Origin: Lobosporangium transversale
Lineage: Eukaryota; Mortierellomycota; Mortierellomycetes; Mortierellales; Mortierellaceae
Length of the DNA: 64,000 bases
Assembly: GCF_002105155.1 (NCBI RefSeq)
Contig: NW_019029015.1
Span: 186,001-250,000, forward strand
Direction: 5' to 3'
Shown here: positions 18,441 to 64,000 of the stretch, piece by piece
Layout of the letters: every line of letters starts with the position of its first letter
How positions within the stretch are numbered: position 1 is the stretch's first letter
The notes under the pieces: model-generated
Seen by the model: only the letters and a program-made list of their open reading frames with translations
What the model was told of the DNA's origin: nothing
Database searches by the model: none
Position numbers and translations under genes: made by a program

Positions 18441-21237
18441 CTACATATGCTCAATGTGAATTCTCTTGCTACCTCTAGGCTCCTCTCCTTGCTCGGTCGG
18501 CGCCTGTCGCTTGATCGCTCTCTTTTCTCCGCTGTCCATGGAAATATTCTTATTTTTGTTTGGCACAAGGTAGGATGGTCGTTCTTGATAAAGTAGATGG
18601 CCTTGGACAATGTTGGCTATGTTATGCCCTGCCATGATGTCTCTGTGCATAAATGCCTTGCAGCTGCTGCAATACAGTCGACGGATCTCAACCTGACCAA
18701 CAAATTCTTGACAGATAGGACATTTTTTTGAGGTGTAGTATTCGTTTACGCCAACAACGATGTACCCAAAAGATCGGGCCTAATGAGGTAGGAGAGCAAG
18801 ATAAGTTACAATGTGACAACAACGGCAATATAAAGCAATGACCAACAGTTTTCCCATGGCTAGCTTGGCCGGCCACTGTTTCAACTACTACTTGAAACAG
18901 TATAGCCACCGGCCAAGTTTATTTTGTAATATTGAGCGAGTCCTTACCTTATTCACAAATACGATTGGAATGATTCGTGTAACGAAGACAGCCTGGTATT
19001 AGACGAAAACTTGCCAAGACCCACTCCGATCACCACCTTATCTCCTTCATTTACCTTCGCTCCAATTGACCCGCCAACTATCTTGAGCAGACTGTTGGCA
19101 ATCTTCTTGTATTCTTCAACCCGAGCCCTTTTCGCATCCCACCTATGTTTCTTGATGACATTGTTGCTGCTATAGAAGGAATCTAGGCCTTTCTCCACGT
19201 CTCTAAGCTTCTCAATGTAGTTTTTTATGCTTGCATCATTTCCACGAAGAGACGGTAGGCTACTCTCAATGTCACTAATGGACTGTGAACCGTAGACCGC
19301 TGCTGCCTTCCGCTGCTCCATCCAATGTCGGTATTTGAGAGTGGGCTGGTACGCTGCCTTCTGCTTGACGGCCAAGTTGTAAAATCTGGATGTCTGGGTC
19401 GCCGTGTTGGTGAGCTCACTACTTGGTAACAACGCGCTTGCTCCGACGATGAAAGACTGCCCTAAATCTAGACCTAAAATATTGATTTCTTCTGGCTTGC
19501 AGCCCAAAGGTCGGTGATATCTTGCTTAGTACTCACTACATTCCTTATCTCGGTCACGAAATAGTCTGTGCCGCCAAGAGTGGAATTGATCCTAAAAGGT
19601 AATCTTTCCTCGGGAAGTCGCCGATATTTTACCGCATTGAGTTCGTTCAATTTGAATGCTAGCAATTAGAGACGAAACCCATCAGTTCGAATTGACCCTC
19701 GTAAAATATAACCGCGCTTGTCGTAAGTCTGAGGCCCGGGCACGAAGTCATCCTCTCGAATGTATCGAATGTGCTCTCTCATCATGCTGAGTGGCATTAT
19801 GGAAGTTGTAGCCTTAAATCCTTTGTATTTCTTACGCTCTTCCTCTTCAAAGCCACCAATGTCAGTTAGCAGACTTGTAATGAGATACCCAGGGTCCCTG
19901 CCCGAGAGCCACACTCTAAGGTCGGCTTTCGAGGGTGTGCAAGTGAAGTCACCTCTGGCATAACTTGAAGTTCAGCTTTGAGTTCATTGTCTTGCCAAAA
20001 GATCTCAATCAGTTCTAACTCTGAGAGATTTATAAAGCCATCTTCAAAAGCGGACAACGGAGCAAGTTTTCGACTGTTATTGCAGCTTTTGTTCAGGCGA
20101 ACAAAGTTCTCTACTGCGGATATGCTAGGGTCGATACTGCTTGCTGTGTCTACAAGTAGCAGACCCTTGTTCTTGAGAGCTTCGATCTGTTATAAAAGGA
20201 ATGAAGATATTAGAATATCATTCGCCGTTATCTTACTCAATGATAAAACTTGAGTGGGGATGATAGCACTCATTAGAGCTAGGCGCGCATACCTTTTCAC
20301 AAAGTGCTTGTGCGCCCTCCTTATAATTCCTCCTTAACTCAACCTTGAGTTGCGTGGCAGTTGATCTCAGGACAACTGAGCCTGGATAGCGCATTCTTGT
20401 ATTGATCGAGCCAGCATCTGCCATAGCTGGCAAAAAGTCCTTGGCCTTATGGATGAAGTTGAGCACATGAGGATCCTTTACGTTGCCAGTTGGGGGCCTC
20501 TTGTTATAGATACACATGAGAAGTGATAGCAGGAAGGTCGTGTTGGCATCATTCGTTTCGTTCTCATCATTCTCTACATTATCCTTCTTCTCAGCTCCAT
20601 TGGGGCCTTCATTGCCGGCCACACTCTTGCTAAATATACGTGGGCAGATAAGATCGAGCAGTTTTCTGTCTGTGTTGCTGACATCGGTAGCTGAAAGCTG
20701 CTCAATGTACTGGCCAATAGCTCTCTCAAGTGCGCTTGGTCTTCGAAGCATGGCGAACGACTTCTTGGAGACAGGCTTTAATCTTGGATCTCAATTGGGG
20801 CTTATCAGTCAATATTCTATTCAGGTTGCCGTTGACCGCCCCAATGTCAAGAGTCCTAGTTGGGTGTTCATACTGCATAGCCCTAACCAAGTCTGTTTTA
20901 TCCATTCCGTCCACCGCTTTTTGTGGCTTTTTCGACTTTTCCTTCTCTTTCTTTTTCTTCTGCTTGCTAGAAGCAAGGGCATTCGTATTGGGATTGTCTT
21001 TGTATTTTTTCTGTTTGTATTGCTTCATGATCTCCGGAGGGACATGCTCGAGCTTTCGGGAGCGAGTTTTGAATGAACATCGCTCTCGGTACTTGCATTT
21101 TCTCCCTGAAGAGTGAGAAGGAGGCCATTGGACAGGAGCTCGGTCAACAGAGCGAAAGATATTGAATGTATCCGAGTGATTGTTCGACTGGGATGAACTA
21201 TCGACGGAACCAATGTCCATGTGAAGGCTGTAAAGGC
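18441..21237 (-). pseudogene. Fanzor (eukaryotic TnpB-like nuclease), copy A, decayed C-terminal part of an XPG-Fanzor gene
   Basis: Fanzors are RNA-guided DNA nucleases related to transposon TnpB. From the phase-2 acceptor near 21237 the frame reads a Lys-rich linker (KQKKKKEKEKSKK), helical recognition-like segments, then RuvC-I ILGLDLGQSF (19460-19490). RuvC-II-like VVIGVGLGKFS follows, then a zinc ribbon with CPIC and YCSSC and RuvC-III HRDIMAGHNIANI (about 18610-18650). Introns are seen at 20292, about 19970-19930 (43 nt), about 19550-19507 and 18952-18783. Damage includes a frame change near 20740, TAA at 19666-19668 where copy B reads on (LRL-stop-LLAF against LALTLLAF), and TGA at 18953-18955. 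The canonical RuvC-II glutamate position holds Gly, as reported for many Fanzors. The tail is basic and NLS-like (KRAIKRQ). Confidence 0.75.
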
Positions 21238-21304
21238 GGGTTAGTTCGATGAAAATGTAGGGAAAAGGGATAAAAAGTAAGGCTAATGTCAGTGCATTAC
21301 CTCT

Positions 21305-21536
21305 TATCTATTCTCCTATTCATTTTTAATTGCTCGCGGATTGACGCCAGTCTCTGTAGCAGGCTTTCATGAGTCACGGGAACGTGTATGGAAGTCTGAA
21401 ATGCAACAGGAAGAGATTTTCTCTGTTACAGATCCACGAAAACCCTTATAGAGTCTTCAAAATATCCGTCAGCTACCTCCTTTCCCCTCACCTCATTGTG
21501 TCTCAAGTATTCCTGGATCATGTTCCTGGGATCTTT

Positions 21537-21572
<36 letters not shown>

Positions 21573-22374
21573 AAAGAGAGAGTTTGATGTGAAATTCAGT
21601 CTTTTAGAAGCGTGCAATCCTGTGGTATACCATTGCCTTCTCCAACCTGCTCCTTGACAATTCTGTAGTTGGTGACACTTCCAAGCCGGGAAATGTTGCT
21701 TGTGTAGTCGTTCTTGCTCACGATACACAGTACCGTCAATTGGGATCGTGTAATGTTTAGGGTGGTGAGTACGTCTGCAAGCTTGTACACTAAAATGTGA
21801 TCTCTTGAGATAGGGCGCCAAACCGTTGAGATATTCTTGTATGCGAGCATGTCACTGTCTCGGGAGACAACTACATCCTCGAGCTGGCAATCAGTCGCAT
21901 GTATTTCGCGAATGATTCTCGTGCTTCTTTTGACCAATGAAAGGCCATATCCAACGCCTTTATTACGGCAACGAACTGTTCCTTTCGGACTCGACTCTTG
22001 CTTTGCACGCGTTGGTATAGTTCATCGAGCCCTTGTTGGGCGTCCATCAATGCCTTGGCTCGTACTTCCTCTCGATATATATGAGTATGTTTTTTTTCCT
22101 CACAGGCGTCACCGTCAAGATACAGGATAAGGTTTTCTGGTGTTCCATACTTCCCCAGCTCTCTTTCCATGATCTTGTGGGCTGTATCGAGGGAATGATT
22201 GGAATATGCGTTTTGAATTATGGGATGTAAGGTTCCTAGGACATCGAACCTTATGTAGGCGTTGCAATTGAAGGGATTGAAAGGATTAGAGGTGGCGCAG
22301 ATTAACGAATGGTAGTGGAGAGTTGCCTCGTAGCCTGTCTTTAGAAGAAAAGACCAGAGGCCCTCGATTCCCAT
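21305..22374 (-). pseudogene. XPG/FEN1-like nuclease domain, copy A, decayed N-terminal part of an XPG-Fanzor gene
   Basis: The start MGIEGLWSFL matches the MGI(K/E)GL opening of the FEN1/XPG family. Metal-site motifs remain: FDVLGTLH, LYLDGDACEEKK, VSRDSDMLAY and KNDYTSNISRLG. Between DMAFHWSKEARESFAKYM and ATDCQLEDVVVSRDSD the reading frame changes and the family's E-A-D block is lost, so the catalytic site is broken. Later exons (EYLRHNEVRGKEVADGYFED; THESLLQRLASIREQL) align with copy B. The last exon ends AAG AG at a GTAATG donor (phase 2), and the Fanzor exon resumes at the CCTTCACATG acceptor in the right phase. The two domains therefore appear to belong to one transcript. Start at 22374. 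Confidence 0.7.
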
Positions 22375-52904: not shown

Positions 52905-53632
52905 GACATTAAGCAGTGCATACCTGCATACTCCTGATCAAGCCTTGAAACTGGGCTTGAAGATCGACTACCTCTGTCGGCAGGTGACACAAAGACAATT
53001 CCTGCATAAGGAACACATATGATATGCTATTGACTGGCCGAGCCTGGATGGTTGTGTAGTCGCAGCCTGTTTTGTAGGAGATGTGGCTGGTCGTCACACT
53101 TCTCACGCATAGTGTACATGTACAAGTTCCCCACTTACTACCGGTATAGCCGCTGAGTAAGTCAAACTATGCTAGCCATGATTCCCTTACCCACTGCGGC
53201 TCTGAAAGGTTGCTGGCGACAAATGGATGAGGACGTTTTGGTGTAGAGGAAGTGCATGTTGTGGTTAGCGGCCGTTTATTTAAGTTTTTACTACAGTTAG
53301 CCTTTTTTTTATTAAATGAAGATCTCTGGATTATAATAAAGATCATCCGTTCTCGTTACCTATTGTAATCCTGGCATATTTCAGTGCATTAAGAGAATTT
53401 GATTGATATGATCAATCAATATAGCCTCGAGAATGCCACTGAAAGGACTATGCTATTGAACATTACCATACAATGGCTGTCTTTGTGGCAATCGTACCGG
53501 TCCGCATCACTCATCGACTCGTCATCAGGAGGAGAGACACTGTGAGGGTGGCGACCTTGCAACGTGCAAAGTCGCAATCCATTCACATACTGCAGAATTG
53601 TAATAGGTAGTTCAGGCATATCAAACAATGGC
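52905..53632 (-). pseudogene. Probable third Fanzor remnant (relic C)
   Basis: The block 53284-53392 aligns with 60065-60177 inside the Fanzor B gene, sharing TGAAATATGCCAGGAT, GTAACGAGAACG and GATCTTC...AATAAAAA. Upstream on the same strand, YVNGLRLCTLQ matches FTNGLALTLLAF of copy B at the corresponding place. The rest is too decayed to align; an open stretch at 53106-52920 (CDYTTIQARPVNSISYVF) cannot be placed. There is no zinc ribbon or RuvC aspartate. Confidence 0.45.
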
Positions 53633-56942: not shown

Positions 56943-57806
56943 CCATTGTTGATAACGAGCTTCTGAATCTTAAGCTTGACGTGTATGTCGCCTGGGACCA
57001 TGAAACAGAGGAATGTGATATTGTCACTTTTCTCCGAAGTTTGGTCGGTTTCTCTTCAAGCAGGTTCCAGTAATATTATCGGCCATCCAATTATCAAGTC
57101 CCAGAAAATAATACTGGCCAGGATCAAAGATGAGCGCCATCAGCAGATAGCTAATGCAAGAAGCCTGTCCTATGAGGATTTCATGGAGTTGTGCGAGTTG
57201 CCTGAGCTCACACATGCAGATAAGTATGCAGTGTCTAAATATCGCTTGATGAAAGCCTACAATATAGCCACACCTGACATTATGACGCCTGAGTGGGTCA
57301 AGGATTATGATAATGAGAAAGAGAAAAGCGTTTACAAGAACCTGTGCTCTCTATACACCACTAATAGCACCACTTTGGAAGATAGACTAGAGGCTGTCCG
57401 ACAAAGGGAGGAGGCTAGACTAGGATTATGCCCAAAAACCAAAGTGCATCACAATCTTGAAGGCTCGCGATATGTCAAATTGCGATATGCAGCGGATATC
57501 ATGACATCATGTGGATTCACAGATGTATTCGCCAGTAATACTGTGCAAGCACAGACTCTCAAAGAAGGAATCAGAAGGATATGGGAAGGCGTTTTGAAGG
57601 AAATGGATAACACTTGCATAGCACTGGATAGAAAGAAACCAACGCACAATAATTGGATATTCAAACACCAACTAGGGTATCTAAACAATATTTTACATGA
57701 TGTGCTTGGTGTTAAGATTGTGGGAGTCAACAAACGCTGTGCGAAATATCATCTGGTGCACTACTCAAAGGTTGCTTCACTACGGCAGATGTCCTTTGAT
57801 ATTTAA
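56943..57806 (+). pseudogene. Helicase/replication-origin-binding-like C-terminal fragment
   Basis: About 265 codons are open from about 57015 to the stop at 57806 (IIKSQKIILARIKDERHQQI, YNIATPDIMTPEWVKDYDNE, TSCGFTDVFASNTVQAQTL, HQLGYLNNILHDVLGVKIVG). A preceding stretch (TIVDNELLNLKLDVYVAWD, DIVTFLRSLVGF) lies in another frame and joins it only by a frameshift near 57060; no methionine opens it. The pattern recalls the C-terminal part of helicase or replication-origin-binding-like proteins found in fungal mobile elements and large DNA viruses, but this is a weak likeness, and no Walker motifs are present in the part seen. It lies next to the Fanzor B gene and converges with it. Confidence 0.35.
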
Positions 57807-58484
57807 AAAAATTGTGTTTAAATCACGGCAAAATGTCTATCCGGTGGGTAGACTTGCAAATGCATTCTATAAAAGAAAAAAAAATATTGGTCTCCTAACT
57901 AGTTTTTGAGTAAAACCTCTTTATTTGCAAATTGAGGAAAATCTGTAACAAATTTGTTCTGGAAACAGACGAAGGGATACAGCCCACATAAATAGGATAT
58001 CAATTTTATATAGAGAAAATGAATGAATAAATACTCGGAAATGTGCTGCGATCCACATTCAATTCTCACTGATCTAACAATTTCCGGTTATTATTTTCCA
58101 ATAATAATAATAATTGGTTTTGTACGTTACTACAGCCTTTAGATGACGATGACGATGACGATGGTGGTATGCTGGATGATGATATTGCTGTCGTTGCATT
58201 ATATACCGTTGCATTGTTTCGTTGCATTGCTTGCTGGCTGTTGATGATTGATGGAGCTTGATGGATTTGTTTCTGATATCCCTTCCTCTTCTTCTTCCGT
58301 CTATTATATATAGTCCGTCCCATTAAAAAACGAGACATTCCATCTATTGTAAAAAGAAGAAATGTATTAGAACACAGAAATAAATAAATTAACCAAGAAA
58401 AAAAAGTACTATCAAGCCAATACTTACAATTTTTTTAAGACGAAGGCCTTTCTGGACCTAGTCATGTTTGTAGTAGATTGTGTC
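57807..58484. other. Region downstream of Fanzor B
   Basis: 3' flank of copy B. A minus-strand frame at 58066-58338 (90 codons, poly-Ser tract) lacks a credible splice partner. By analogy with other TnpB/Fanzor loci, the guide-RNA part, if one exists, would lie here or at the 3' end of the gene. Confidence 0.35.
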
Positions 58485-61400
58485 CTACTGTTGTTGCCGG
58501 CTTGTCTCTCCCCCTCCTCCTGGACCCAGCAAAGGTCCTTTCGGTGGTCTTGATCCCTCTACTCCTCCTCCTCCTTCATCTGAAAATTTCCTTTTTCTGA
58601 TTCCTCCACTGCCACTTCCACCACTACCTCCCTCTCCTCCTCCTCCTTCCCCCGGGCTTAACAAAGGTTCCTTCGATGGTCTCGAACCCTCAACTTCCCC
58701 TCCTCCATCATCCGAGAATTTTCTTTTTGTGGTTCTGCCACTACCACTACCACTACCACTACCTCCTACCCCTGGACTCAACAAAAGCCCTTTCGGTGGT
58801 CTTGATCCCTCTACTCCTCCTCCTCCTCCTTCATCTGAAAATTTCCTTTTTGTGGTTCTGCTGCTACCACCACCACTGCCACCACTGCCACCACTACCTC
58901 CACCGCCGCCACTACCGCTAGAAGCTTGGCCTTGAGTTCCTCCGTCCGGCGGCATATATTTTGCAGGTCGTTTTTGCTCTCTTATCTGCGACTCACAGAC
59001 CCTTGCGATGTTCTCAGCACCAACAGCATCTCGATCAAAGTATGCTTTACAATTTCGACAGTACTTGGATCGAAAAGGAACATTCTCCAATATACTGTCA
59101 CAGTGAGGCCGTGGACACTTGGCAGATGTGTAGTATTCATGACAACCTGCAATGGGGTAGTCTAGAGATTTTGCCTGTTCGAGCCAGATTTAATACTCGT
59201 TAAAAAAGAGACTCAAAAATTGAATGTCATTGATCAAGGGATTTTTTTTTTACCTTTTCAACAAGCTTCTTCATCAATATCCCATGCTTCGATACTTGTC
59301 CTCGGTTTGTCTTGAATGATCCTAGTCCAATACAGATCACCACATTCGTATTGGCATCTCTTCTTCTTCCATTGCTTCCGCCCGCAAGCTTCAGAATTGC
59401 CTTGATCACATAATCAACGCATCCGTTCTGTGCTTTTCTATTATCCCAGCTATTCCGAACAAACCACCCGTCATTATAGAAATCGACAAGCGCCCTATAT
59501 ATAGTCTCCCTATTGTCGTCACTGGTCCCAGATCCACTGCTACTACTGGCCTCAACTCCACTGCTACTACCGGTCCCTGCTCCACTGCTACTACTGGCCC
59601 CAACCCCACTACCAGAGAAACTACCTCCAGTACTTGATGGAGCTTGATTTAGCGGCAAGCTCATATAAGCGAAATACTGTGTTAAAGTAGGCCTTGAGAA
59701 TGACGGAATATTGCTTTCAATCTCTGTAATTCCTCTTCTAAGCTTTCGCCTCTCTAGCTCGCCCTGAAACTTCTTGGATGGTTTGTAAAGGTACGCTCTA
59801 GAAATCCGGAGGATCTCACGTTCGTTAGGTTTCCTTGGATCCAACTTTGCAATTGTCATCGAGTACCTCTCGCCTGGATCGATCCCAATGATAATGGTAC
59901 TTTCGGGGGGAGGGCATGCTGCCTGGGTGTCATATTTAACTTCTACATTCTCGAGGAGACGGGATCTCTGCTTCCAGTTGATCTCACGCCGGGGACTGGG
60001 ACTCACCGGGGACAGTGGATTTGTGCTCGATGTACCTTTGTTGCGATTAGCAGTCATTTACATGGGTTTTTACTATAGCTAAGATTTTTACCCTTTTTAT
60101 TTAACGAAGATCCCCGGATCATAATAAACACATCTTTCTTTCGTTCTCGTTACTTATTATGATCCTGGCATATTTCAACCTTCTTCAGCTGCTTCTTCTC
60201 CCTCTTCGCCATCTAAGAATGGTTCATCAACTTCCAGCAAGTCAATATCGCTGATACCCAGCAAGATATCGTCATCTTCATTTCCGTCGTCGTCTCCATC
60301 ATCACCACCATCACCTGCACCATGGCCTGAAGACGAGGATCCCTGCTGAGCACTTGAAGAAGCCTGGACTGCTTGAGATCTTTGAGTATCCGAAGGTTGG
60401 GCAGCTTGCGAACCTCTACCTCTTTTTTGCTTCGATGTGTCAAAGGCAAGAAGTGTTAGGGCAAGGCCGTTTGTAAAGAACGATGTCCGTAGTTTCCTTC
60501 TAGGGCCATCATCAGATTGCAGTCCAACGTCCTTGTATCCTTTCAAGGAAAACAGCTCCTGCAACAATATCCCCTTGTAGTTAAGGATCTTGTCCTCTGC
60601 AGCCCCCTTGGTACTCATGTTTAGTTCCAACAATTGGACTATTTCCTCTCGAACTGTTGGATTAGACCATAATATATCCAGGAGACAGACTTCCGTTAAG
60701 CAGAGAGACCGAGGCAAGAAAGCAGACGTAGGGAAATCCAGATATTTTTTGGCAGTTGCATTTTGCTCAAAAAAGAATTGGATGGAACTTCTTCCATCGC
60801 CTGGAATATCTATGTCAAACTAGACATTATATTGAAGAAATGATTAGGAACATTTCTATAAACATATTATAAGATAACCTCAAAATATTATAATATTATA
60901 TTTACCTGCGCATTCCGATAGTGAGACCTTAGCGCTGCTTGAACAGGGACCATGACCATCCGAGACGACCTGCTGATCACCAAATCGGGATAGATCTGGT
61001 TTAAAGGACCAAGCCCTGTGTTTGCATAGAAGTTTTCGTATGCTTTGAGCTGGGACGGCTTGGCTACGTTCCCTTCGCCTTTTTTCTTCACTTCCCTGCT
61101 ATACCTAGATAATGGACTCATCACTCCGTGATACAACAACGCAGCAAGGCCGTAAATAAAGTCCCTGCTATCAAGAACTTCATCTAGGAGTTGTGGGAGA
61201 TCAGCTGGATTGGATGGCCCAGTGGTAAGCAGGTTATCGATCCACAAGGCGCAGGCCCAGAAAGCTCGAATCCGTGCCTCATTCAACATTTTAATAAATG
61301 ATTGAATGAGCCCTTGAATTGTTGCAGCAAGTTGCTCGGGATTGAGATTGGGATCGGAAGTAGAGTCCAGCTTGGCAACTACACATGTCTTCAACGTGCC

Positions 61401-61733
61401 CAGAGTTAATGCAACAGTGGGGTGGGCCCTCTTCAACCGTCGGTCCTCGGCAGTAGCCTCCTTCACTTTCCTGGTCTTATCAGTCTTTCTGATATACTTG
61501 GCCTTCCCTTTGTTCTTCTTTTTTTTCTTCTTTTCCTCCTTAACCTCCTCTTTGTCATCCTCTTTTTTTTCCTTTTCCTTTTTTTGGGGGACTTTCTTTG
61601 ACGGCTGGAGCTGACGGGACGGTCGTGTTGTTTGCAGTTGGTCAGGTCATATTTCTTAGGGGAAAGTTCCTTTTTCTGGGTAGGGAAAACAGGCCGATAG
61701 CGATTCGGCTTTGCGCGTTTAGGGATATAGAAT
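58485..61733 (-). CDS. Fanzor (eukaryotic TnpB-like nuclease), copy B, C-terminal part of an XPG-Fanzor gene
   Basis: Exons: 61733-60906, 60819 to about 60178, about 60057-59254 and 59174-58485. After a very basic linker comes a helical part (RAHPTVALTLGTLKTCVVAKL; RAFWACALWIDNLL), LALTLLAFDTSK, and RuvC-I IIIGIDPGERYSM. RuvC-II-like VVICIGLGSF (Gly, not Glu, at the usual spot) follows, then a zinc ribbon (EYYTSAKCPRPHC, YCRNCKAYF) and RuvC-III DRDAVGAENIARV. The tail has three repeats of a Gly-rich unit with KRKFSDEGGG. Two breaks are unresolved: a one-base frame change in the A/G homopolymers at 61518-61590, and stops in about 60177-60058 after an acidic stretch, perhaps an intron. It may be functional or recently dead. 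Confidence 0.78.
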
Positions 61734-61833
61734 CTAATTAGGAACAACAATGTCAAGGGTTAGATGACTTTTTTTTTTTTTTTTTTTTTTTTTTTGTATA
61801 TGCTTTGGAAAATGTTCATTTGAAGGAGCTTAC

Positions 61834-62855
61834 CTGGGTTGAGGTTGATTATTTTTATTCTGGTACCTAGCAGATATCGCAGTCCTCATTCTATCATGGT
61901 AATGAAGGAATCTTTCAGCGGTTGGTTGCTGTGAAGCCTGGGTTTGGATCCTACCAAAGAAAACATTAATTGAATGGTCAAACTGGCCTTCTGCAGGAGT
62001 TCGACGGCTACGGGCATGGACCTCACGAACATATGATACCGTCAACTTTTCGGCATCAGTGTCAGTGAGCGCAGAGATAATCTCAGCATTTGTAGCAAGA
62101 CCAAAGGTTGGGATATTTGGGGTGTAATCGTTATCGGATATAACGCCATAGACCAGGAGTTGACTGTCCCTTGAAAACCCAAGGGCTTGCAGGACCTCTT
62201 GTTTCTCATAGAGTGCAAACATGTGATGGCGACGAGGGATTGGACGAAGAACTCTTTTTATAGAAGGATAGATGAGAAGGTCAGAGTCCCCAGACACAGC
62301 GATACTGGTTGGTGTACATTTGGCGGCAATACACACATCAGCCTCATTTCTACAATGGCAAATCACAAAGTTATTGTATCGACCGAATGGCGCCGCGAGC
62401 TCCCTCTTCTCGTTATGACTGAATGTGAAGAGCTGTCGAAGATTCTTTTTAATGGCAATCATATGGCTTCGAGATTCCCATTTGCCTTCATTGGACTTGG
62501 TTTCCATGTTGGCTATGAGCGTATCGAGTTTTGCATCCGCTGCTGTACGCTTAGCATCTCGGTCCCTATAGGCGCGCGTTTTTTCTTCGCAGCGAGGCCC
62601 ATCAATGTGTATCGTCACTGTGGCAAGAGGACCAAAGATTTTTCGAATGATACTAGCCATAGCATGGCCGCAGGCAGTGAAAGAACTCTGCCGGCTGAAT
62701 CTCCTTAGGATGATATTATGTATATCGCTGTGGAAAGTGCCAAGCAGATCCAGCTCAAAAGATGAATGGGGTTCAGCAGCAAGCTCATGTACATCAATCT
62801 CCTTTGGTGGCAGGTCTCTCCTTGAAAGGTATGAATAGAGTCCTTTAATACCCAT
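61834..62855 (-). CDS. XPG/FEN1-like nuclease domain, copy B, N-terminal exon of an XPG-Fanzor gene
   Basis: One long exon of 340 codons plus two bases. The FEN1/XPG fold is well preserved: MGIKGLYSYL start, FELDLLGTFH (first metal Asp), VTIHIDGPRCEEKTRAYRDR (second Asp with the basic helix), CRNEADVCIAAKC (the EAxxDxC-like acid block), IAVSGDSDLLIY (DSD pair) and VISDNDYTPNIPTFG (the DYxxxIxxxG H2TH region). All visible catalytic acids remain. The frame has no stop before the GTAAGC donor at 61833-61828: the in-frame TAA is part of the donor. Splicing to ATTCTATATC at 61733 joins in frame (CAG AG|A TTC) to the basic Fanzor part. A separate short protein ending QPQPR is possible if the intron is retained. 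Confidence 0.85.
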
Positions 62856-63380
62856 CTAGAGAAAGTATAGTGTAAAACAGTGCAAGCAATGTTGGTTTAA
62901 GCGGCTAAAGATTGAAGCTGAAGTTGTTAGAGTAGAGATAGTTTACCTTTAAGAAAGCAAAAAGTTATGATCTGTGAGGGGATGAGGGTGTAAGAGTACG
63001 GGTGAGAGTGCGAAAGCAATGTCGTTGTAAAATGAGAGAGAGAGAGGGAAAAAGAGAAGGAGGCAGGACGTGTTTATAGGTGTATGAAAGAGAACGAAAC
63101 AAAAGGCTGATGAATTTGGAACAACTCGAAACAATAAGATTCTCAGCGACAAGTTTTAACTTTTTGGATTTCGAGTATTGTTTACAGCTCTTCTCCAATC
63201 ATCTACATTTACCAAATCAAGCCTTCGCCATGACAATCAACAAGAAATAAAAAAAACAGACTTCCTTACGTTCCCCCTCGGTATGTGTATCTGTCTGAAC
63301 ACGTCCTAACTGACATCCTCTCGACAATCCTTCCAAGGCTGCAGTGTTTGAATGTGTACAGGGAACAAAAGAGGTCTAGA
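62856..63380. promoter_or_regulatory. Upstream region of the XPG-Fanzor B gene
   Basis: A GA/CT-rich stretch (62975-63075, AGAGAGAGAGG) lies before the start codon at 62855. No gene or clear TATA box is seen. Confidence 0.4.
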
Positions 63381-63389
63381 TACAGGCTC

Positions 63390-63776
63390 TCTTTGTGACA
63401 TTGAAGGAGATCGCATGTTTCATGGCTATCGAGACAAGGTACCCCTACAGGCACAAGACAAAGGTATAACTCGGTTCAAACTCAAAGGAACGGTTTTGCC
63501 AATGGCCTTGTTCTGAATCCACTTGCCTATGACACAGTCCAGACGAAGAGACAGCAGCAGTCTGACGTAGATGAAGAAGATCTCAGCCAGGAATTGAAAC
63601 TTTCTCAAGGATTCCTTAACACGGCGTGTTTTAAAGGCAGCCGGTGAAGACCTGACAGATAAAGACTACGCAAACATAAACTGGAAGAGGAGCCCCAAAC
63701 TTCTTGAAAACGTTGGACTCATATTCCATGAGCTAGGGCGATGCTCATCTGCAAATACCACAACTACCGTCTAATG
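63390..63776 (+). pseudogene. Degenerate coding relic
   Basis: From about 63400 to 63639 one frame reads SHVSWLSRQGTPTGTRQRYN, GFANGLVLNPLAYDTVQTK and DVDEEDLSQELKLSQGFLN up to a TGA. A second frame then continues DLTDKDYANINWKRSPKLLE to a TAA at about 63776. It has no ATG and no recognised domain. It is probably a broken gene, perhaps of the same or a neighbouring mobile element. Confidence 0.3.
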
Positions 63777-64000
63777 CGATCCTGGTATTGTTAATGCCCT
63801 TACGTTTTCTTCGCTAGACCGTCACAACCCTGACCTGCGTCAAACGGTGAAGGTGAGAAGTAGGCTCGTCAACAGCCTGTGTGCCTTATATGCGTTGCAC
63901 CAATGCTCACTGACAGGTTGAGTCCAAATTCGAGATACCAAAATAGCCTTCTTTGAATCCATGGGGAGGAAAGACACCAAGCCGGCAACAACAATAGGAT

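Follow-up and report, generated by a model that had tools for sequence, protein, structure and literature searches.

A gene that appears to join an XPG/FEN1/EXO1-type nuclease domain to a Fanzor, an RNA-guided nuclease, is carried by a transposon of the fungus Lobosporangium transversale and has predicted relatives in other genera of the Mortierellaceae. The copy described here lies on the minus strand of a stretch of 64,000 nucleotides, referred to below as the window (contig NW_019029015.1, positions 186,001 to 250,000; G000:C59:186001-250000 of the genome searched, which comprises 42.7 Mb in 127 contigs). Both halves belong to known families and their fusion is the new part. No Fanzor-XPG fusion was found in the literature searched, which agrees with an earlier sequence-only reading that knew of no described family with an N-terminal flap-endonuclease-type domain on a Fanzor; an earlier notice is possible in the large Fanzor survey of Jiang and colleagues. 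Read as a whole, the system would be a two-nuclease mobile protein of the Mortierellaceae, consisting of an XPG/FEN1/EXO1 domain, a Lys-rich linker and a Fanzor, that takes part in a cycle of excision, guided cutting and resection. From sequence comparison and structure modelling, this reading is given a probability of about 45%.

Organization of the predicted fused gene

The predicted gene consists of four exons on the minus strand. Exon 1 (61834..62855) encodes the XPG/FEN1/EXO1-fold nuclease domain in an open frame of 341 amino acids (aa), which reaches its GT donor without a stop, as the sequence-only reading had noted. It is followed by intron 1 (61734..61833; GTAAGC...AATTAG, phase 2) and by exon 2 (60906..61733), which contains the FYIPKRAKPNRYRPVF motif, a Lys-rich linker and the N-terminal part of the Fanzor. 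Exon 3 (59254..60819) encodes the middle part of the Fanzor with the RuvC-I motif GIDPGE (Asp codon 59880-59878) and the RuvC-II region, and exon 4 (58485..59174) encodes the E-alt motif HEYYTS (Glu codon 59138-59136), a C4 zinc ribbon, the RuvC-III motif DRDAVGAEN and a Gly/Ser-rich tail. The positions of intron 2 (60820..60905) and intron 3 (59175..59253) match those of a second family of such genes (family 2), the window copy being a member of family 1. The basic linker, RuvC-I, zinc ribbon and RuvC-III listed in the sequence-only reading could all be located, as could the RuvC Asp residues that it regarded as kept. Its claim of an in-frame splice into a Fanzor held only in part: the acceptor at 61734/61733 joins exon 1 in frame to the exon that follows, and the spliced frame of the window copy (L046) then stops at 430 aa, within exon 2, because an A-run there is one base shorter than in the common form.

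An annotated protein of 675 aa, P0001, starts inside exon 1 and reads across the junction between exons 1 and 2. In family 2, whose XPG part is 31-32% identical to that of family 1, the copies L048 and L049 have a GT-AG intron 1 of 84 nucleotides (nt) with the same phase as in family 1 and ahead of the same FYI motif. These features bear on the alternative that two adjacent genes share one transposon, namely an XPG-like gene terminated by the TAA in the donor and a separate Fanzor gene. The annotation offers some support for this, as it also contains a model of nothing but the XPG exon (P0004; 341 aa, with 13 member sequences) and a Fanzor-only model that begins at an internal Met (P0013), and exon 1 stays open in copies where the Fanzor part is broken. 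The TAA itself is given by any phase-2 GTAAG intron after G and is therefore no evidence for separate genes. Separate genes are further countered by the gap between the two parts, which measures merely 83-100 nt, by the conservation of the position and phase of intron 1 in two families, and by signs that exon 2 is coding ahead of any in-frame Met. The first such Met lies only inside the Fanzor N-terminal part, and the 5′ part of the exon gave ratios of nonsynonymous to synonymous substitution rates (dN/dS) of 0.20-0.41 in three of four comparisons with copies of about 80% identity (41-79 codons; the fourth ratio was undefined). One family-2 copy, L047, is without intron 1 and holds the XPG part and the Fanzor start in a single frame of 512 aa, an outcome with a one-in-three chance for any deletion, and fused predictions occur in three other genera. 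Two separate genes are thus very unlikely, and the proposal that a single gene joins an XPG/FEN1-like to a Fanzor nuclease is supported. The fused architecture is a predicted one, drawn from gene models in several genera and from the open frame of one L. transversale copy.

Genomic linkage and predicted fused relatives

For an analysis of linkage, 105 listed XPG matches were merged into 81 loci and 150 typed Fanzor matches (of 157 counted) into 74 loci. Among the matches listed, to which all counts of linkage refer, 49 of the 81 XPG loci had a Fanzor no more than 4.5 kb downstream in the same orientation, compared with two upstream on the same strand, none downstream on the opposite strand and two upstream on the opposite strand; a chance neighbourhood of two mobile genes was set aside on these figures. 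Linkage was seen at 36 of the 41 XPG loci that span at least 900 bp, and an XPG part lay upstream of 49 of the 74 Fanzor loci. The window holds a third, divergent pair of XPG-like and Fanzor parts in the conserved order (copy A, 18441..22374, minus strand), which was counted as an unlinked XPG locus, its Fanzor half having been missed by the family-1 query. The RuvC-I motif of copy A reads GLDLG, and its Fanzor may represent a distinct type or a decayed copy.

Fused relatives are known as gene predictions. P0012 of Podila verticillata (1260 aa) shows 29% identity over 100% of the fused query and has the catalytic positions of both nucleases, and P0014 of Benniella sp. (1160 aa, five member sequences) shows 34% identity over 94% of that query. 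Together with P0003 (1404 aa) and P0002 (811 aa) of Mortierella alpina, these proteins carry XPG and Fanzor motifs in a single predicted chain with a Lys-rich linker between them. The FY junction motif is present in P0012, P0002 and P0003 and absent from P0014; P0014 terminates ahead of the E-alt region and the zinc ribbon, and P0002 begins inside the XPG part and stops past RuvC-I. Named matches in three protein searches came from Lobosporangium, Mortierella, Podila, Benniella and Entomortierella, all of them Mortierellaceae; as just some 8,000 candidates were scored in two of these searches, a restriction to this family does not follow. The predicted protein P0008 of Entomortierella lignicola (from a contig of 1696 bases) opens with a DDE_1 transposase tail (E 4.2e-6), immediately followed by the beginning of the XPG part; a transposase gene may lie beside the fusion gene in this species, or the arrangement may be a chance insertion.

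The two nuclease domains

The XPG-like domain shares its fold with FEN1, EXO1 and XPG over about 280 residues, with 14-16% identity in the ten best structural alignments. The sequence-only reading had found every visible XPG acid in the window copy, and seven metal-binding carboxylates (D36, D85, E171, D173, D190, D192 and D243) are indeed present and mostly conserved in relatives; two of the seven are missing from the distant P0006. The FDG, DYD and TDY motifs of MjFEN1 align with the domain. As the domain misses the curated cut-off of Pfam XPG_I (13.5 vs 24.9 bits), it is treated here as a divergent branch that has this fold and not as an orthologue of XPG or FEN1. By its fold and acids, which it has in common with the Rad2 family (FEN1, EXO1, XPG), it is a putative 5′-nuclease of the XPG/FEN1/EXO1 superfamily, and it differs from that family in its fusion to an RNA-guided nuclease. 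A full-length model of the Benniella protein had a predicted local distance difference test (pLDDT) of 54.7 and a predicted template modelling score (pTM) of 0.38, and was confident mainly in the XPG domain. The 50 best matches in a structure search with this model were all FEN1/EXO1/XPG/Rad2-type chains; since they fall on the XPG side, the Fanzor assignment rests on sequence.

Within the Fanzor half, PF07282 matched exon 4 with 27.0 bits (cut-off 26.3); it was also above the cut-off on P0003 and P0012 and below it on P0001, P0013 and P0015. As to the subtype, Fanzor1 or Fanzor2, the best matches in the PDB were SpuFz1 (1.4e-5) and a TnpB-like L79 protein (2.2e-5), with close scores. The DPG of RuvC-I appears as GIDPGE in family 1, GCDPG in family 2, GMDPGE in Podila P0012 and GIDPG in Benniella P0014. 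E-alt is located six residues ahead of the zinc finger (HEYYTSAKC, HEFYTSARC, NEFWTSAKC or NEYYTSKKC), which matches the description in PMC10711439, and the C4 zinc ribbon and then the RD of RuvC-III are present. The likeness to Fanzor1, represented by SpuFz1 of Spizellomyces punctatus, comprises the DPG, E-alt, C4 zinc ribbon and RD features, the placing of a fungal gene in a DNA transposon, and the rank of SpuFz1 as the best match among solved structures. The difference lies in the added nuclease: the parts available of PMC10432273, PMC11423790, PMC10711439 and PMC3627910 make no mention of an XPG/FEN1-type domain. The Fanzor of PMC11423790 has a RuvC insertion of about 100 aa, and it is this insertion that binds cyclophilin.

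The 3′ non-coding end (58313..58484, minus strand) is a candidate omega-RNA region with a terminal hairpin. In family 1 the last 63 nt gave a folding z score of -2.2 (6 of 200 shuffles fold equally well) and 148 nt gave -0.86; the values for family-2 3′ ends were +1.03 and -0.47, and no Rfam or tRNA match was found in window positions 57000-64000. Near the right end of both families a GTAAGT...(C/T)AG-like stretch was read by eye (window 58485-58309; L049:3775-3914), which resembles an intron of the 3′ untranslated region ahead of a possible guide RNA end.

The carrier transposon

The fusion gene is carried by a family-1 transposon copy that occupies 58309..64000 on the minus strand and, as judged from BLASTN of copies and boundary reading, has its left (5′) end outside the window, 942 bases past 64000 (G000:C59:250942). 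The ends of family 1 are sharp (TATA-GCCCGTTCCAT ... ATGGGACGGAC-TATA), with flanks that are unlike between copies, and TATA is replaced by TACA or TGTA in a few of them. In the element of L033, which measures about 6.4 kb, there is no further sense-strand open frame of at least 180 aa, and so a DD82E-type transposase of its own was not found. A search for the left terminus gave 94 places in the genome (control 0). Among them are six inverted pairs with a spacing of 6.8-7.2 kb, on G000:C13, C37, C44, C53, C58 and C106, and one of these pairs spans 6979 bases. In PMC8533490, the L. transversale element Sailor (DD82E; IS630-Tc1-mariner group) is given as 6979 bp long with TATA duplications and terminal inverted repeats that usually begin with GT or CC. 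The family-1 element resembles Sailor in the TATA at both ends, a candidate target duplication, and in sharing its left terminus with elements of about 7 kb, the length published there; it differs in that no transposase was found in the XPG-Fanzor element and that its terminus starts with GC. We infer from length and duplication that the elements of about 7 kb are Sailor, and the family-1 element would be at most a non-autonomous Sailor relative.

Other carriers were considered. Among the matches listed, none to DDE_1, MULE, KDZ or DDE_3 fell inside the six elements of about 7 kb, a weak exclusion in that KDZ matched no control genome and that the list of DDE_3 matches stopped at a limit. A carrier of the Academ type with an XPG nuclease was set aside, as the literature searched, in the parts available, made no mention of XPG in this connection. 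The Fanzor1 elements that Bao and Jurka reported from Mucoromycota in 2013 (ROr-4, PBl-3, MCi-4, MCi-2 and MCi-5) likewise place a Fanzor in fungal DNA elements, several of them without a complete transposase of their own; they have MuDR-like ends with 9-bp or other duplications, in contrast to the TATA and Sailor-like ends seen here, and a nuclease fusion is not described in the section examined (PMC3627910).

Flanking bias and a candidate target-adjacent motif

Flank counts were taken from exact terminal cores, with rows of inexact cores excluded. At the family-1 left ends, the base before TATA is G in 14 of 16 cases; the two non-G ends have a common prefix, GGA, and are possibly duplicates. 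All 11 left ends followed by a family-1 Fanzor match no more than 10 kb downstream carry G, as do three of the other five, and the same base is found in 12 of 12 fetched XPG-Fanzor copies with a readable left end, two of which, L029 and L038, were matched to their ends by place. Short elements with a near-identical terminus (n=36) have A in 25 cases and G in nine, and the ends of the type of about 7 kb have G in five of 14 (six of the 14 being inferred as non-G). The base after TATA at family-1 right ends (n=21) is T in 16 and C in three. Fisher tests gave 4e-5 for 14/16 vs 9/36, 6e-5 when the 5/14 of the longer type was added, 1e-5 for left G vs right C and 1e-5 for 11/11 vs 9/36.

The bias is oriented, unlike a symmetric transposase preference, and fits a target-adjacent motif (TAM) on the left and a guide on the right. 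This is the arrangement of TnpB systems, and TnpB of IS200/IS605 carries out TAM-dependent cutting of the donor site. By analogy, the left-flank motif and the presumed right-end guide liken the family-1 element to these systems, from which it differs in the kind of carrier transposon and in the extra nuclease domain. SpuFz1 has the TAM CATA, which is similar to the G-TATA of family-1 left ends, and takes its guide from the 3′ flank, according to PMC10432273. The left-flank G may, on this analogy, be a TAM footprint of the Fanzor, and for RNA-guided cleavage beside a TAM it is at most an indirect sign; in family 2 the left end and TAM were not found. Alternatively, the G preference could belong to this left end with its transposase, in which case there would be no TAM and the protein would act otherwise, in host break repair, regulation or anti-transposon cutting. 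An end-specific preference is possible in that the left and right termini differ in sequence, and G is also met at the ends of the longer type and at family-1 left ends without a listed downstream Fanzor match, in the proportions given above. Such a preference is nevertheless unlikely, as the short elements favour A at a near-identical left terminus and the family-1 right flank keeps an A/T preference.

Proposed mechanism and significance

In the proposed mechanism, a Sailor-type (Tc1/mariner group) transposase acting in trans would excise and move the element. The Fanzor, together with an omega-RNA read from the right end into the flank, would then recognise the resealed donor site beside an (A)G-TATA TAM and cut it. 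EXO1 resects breaks in eukaryotes, and the tethered EXO1/FEN1-like domain would trim or resect the 5′ strands at the break, where 5′ resection may favour homologous copy-back, with the sister chromatid as the source of the element, at the expense of end joining. In its fullest form, the protein would be a natural self-contained cut-and-resect system, that is a transposon-borne guided nuclease that brings its own 5′-nuclease and steers repair to homologous copying, with (A)G-TATA as its TAM footprint; this form is advanced tentatively and is doubtful as it stands.

The role of Fanzor for eukaryotic transposons is an open question, which PMC3627910 discusses. A Fanzor combined with a DNA-end-processing nuclease would permit a direct test of guided cutting of the empty donor, followed by resection-driven copying, as a survival route, and may show how such elements persist in the genome through cut-and-repair. 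It would also serve as a naturally occurring template for guided nucleases that process 5′ ends themselves. A TAM prediction that a single assay could check follows from the left-flank bias.

Preservation of the copies

Several findings weigh against a two-nuclease protein. Breaks were compared in the 14 other family-1 copies, the window copy included, with L033 as the reference. The frame of L033 is open from Met through RuvC-III (1164 codons inspected, zero stops; its Gly-rich tail has a one-base difference from most copies), and as assembled L033 is the only one of 15 family-1 copies to encode the whole fusion. Exon 1 is broken in one of the 14 (L040) and free of frameshift and nonsense changes in the remaining 13. 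In 12 of the 14, exons 2-3 are disrupted by a frameshift or stop; L030 and L034, the remaining two, read open for 944 aa, from the XPG part through RuvC-I, and stop after a deletion of 558 bp. The deletion spans exon 3, intron 3 and exon 4 and is common to L029, L030 and L034. The A-run of exon 2 is short in L046, L027 and L031, longer in L029 and L040, and of the common form in ten of the 15 copies; the one-base breaks in A-rich runs (seven copies) are possible sequencing errors. In recent copies the XPG half looks better preserved than the Fanzor half, and this, the main contrary result, speaks for the XPG half being used alone. In addition, the DPG of RuvC-I is absent in copy A (DLG), M. 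alpina P0003 (EPG) and Benniella P0015 (DSG), the omega-RNA at the 3′ end is a candidate only, and the separate annotation of each half and the transposase account of the left-flank G, both set out above, point in the same direction.

These findings bear on the possibility that the fusion is real, with an XPG-like module that serves transposition by binding or processing DNA structures and a Fanzor that is a dispensable, decaying partner. An XPG exon intact in 13 of the 14 other copies next to a Fanzor part broken in all 14 is what such decay would give, and the same 558-bp RuvC deletion in three copies means that a Fanzor-defective form has spread. Non-autonomous copies can, however, spread with help in trans, and the nonsynonymous to synonymous ratios of unique changes (pN/pS) are alike in all exons, at 0.49, 0.61, 0.47 and 0.42 for exons 1 to 4 (13 copies against L033; one exon 1 single-base change would alone give a stop in this listing, and the copy comparison counts no exon 1 nonsense codon in those copies). 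The catalytic motifs of the Fanzor are retained in most distant relatives, and the left-flank G suggests that a targeting function was once at work. A decaying Fanzor is, on these points, rather unlikely, and the two-nuclease protein with guided cutting and resection is preferred.

Further features of the element

A MITE-like (miniature inverted-repeat transposable element) insertion of 144 bp lies in exon 3 of the window copy (60038..60181, ends approximate, no strand assigned) and brings in an in-frame TGA; it is not at this place in any of the 14 other family-1 copies. The inserted repeat has a 21-bp internal inverted repeat, and L036, L041 and window positions 53257-53383 hold related repeats. 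In the 5′ region of the element (63239-63867), a stretch of 553 bp (63317-63867) runs antisense to the fusion gene and matches exon 3 of the family-2 Fanzor with 86% identity. Most fetched family-1 copies align through this region, so the family-2 stretch was probably captured before the spread of the family. At G000:C53:484283-485043 and G000:C59:2680-3439, a further left end with the GGA prefix lies about 150 bases after the 3′ part of a Fanzor, a layout that would fit duplication of a nested or tandem unit.

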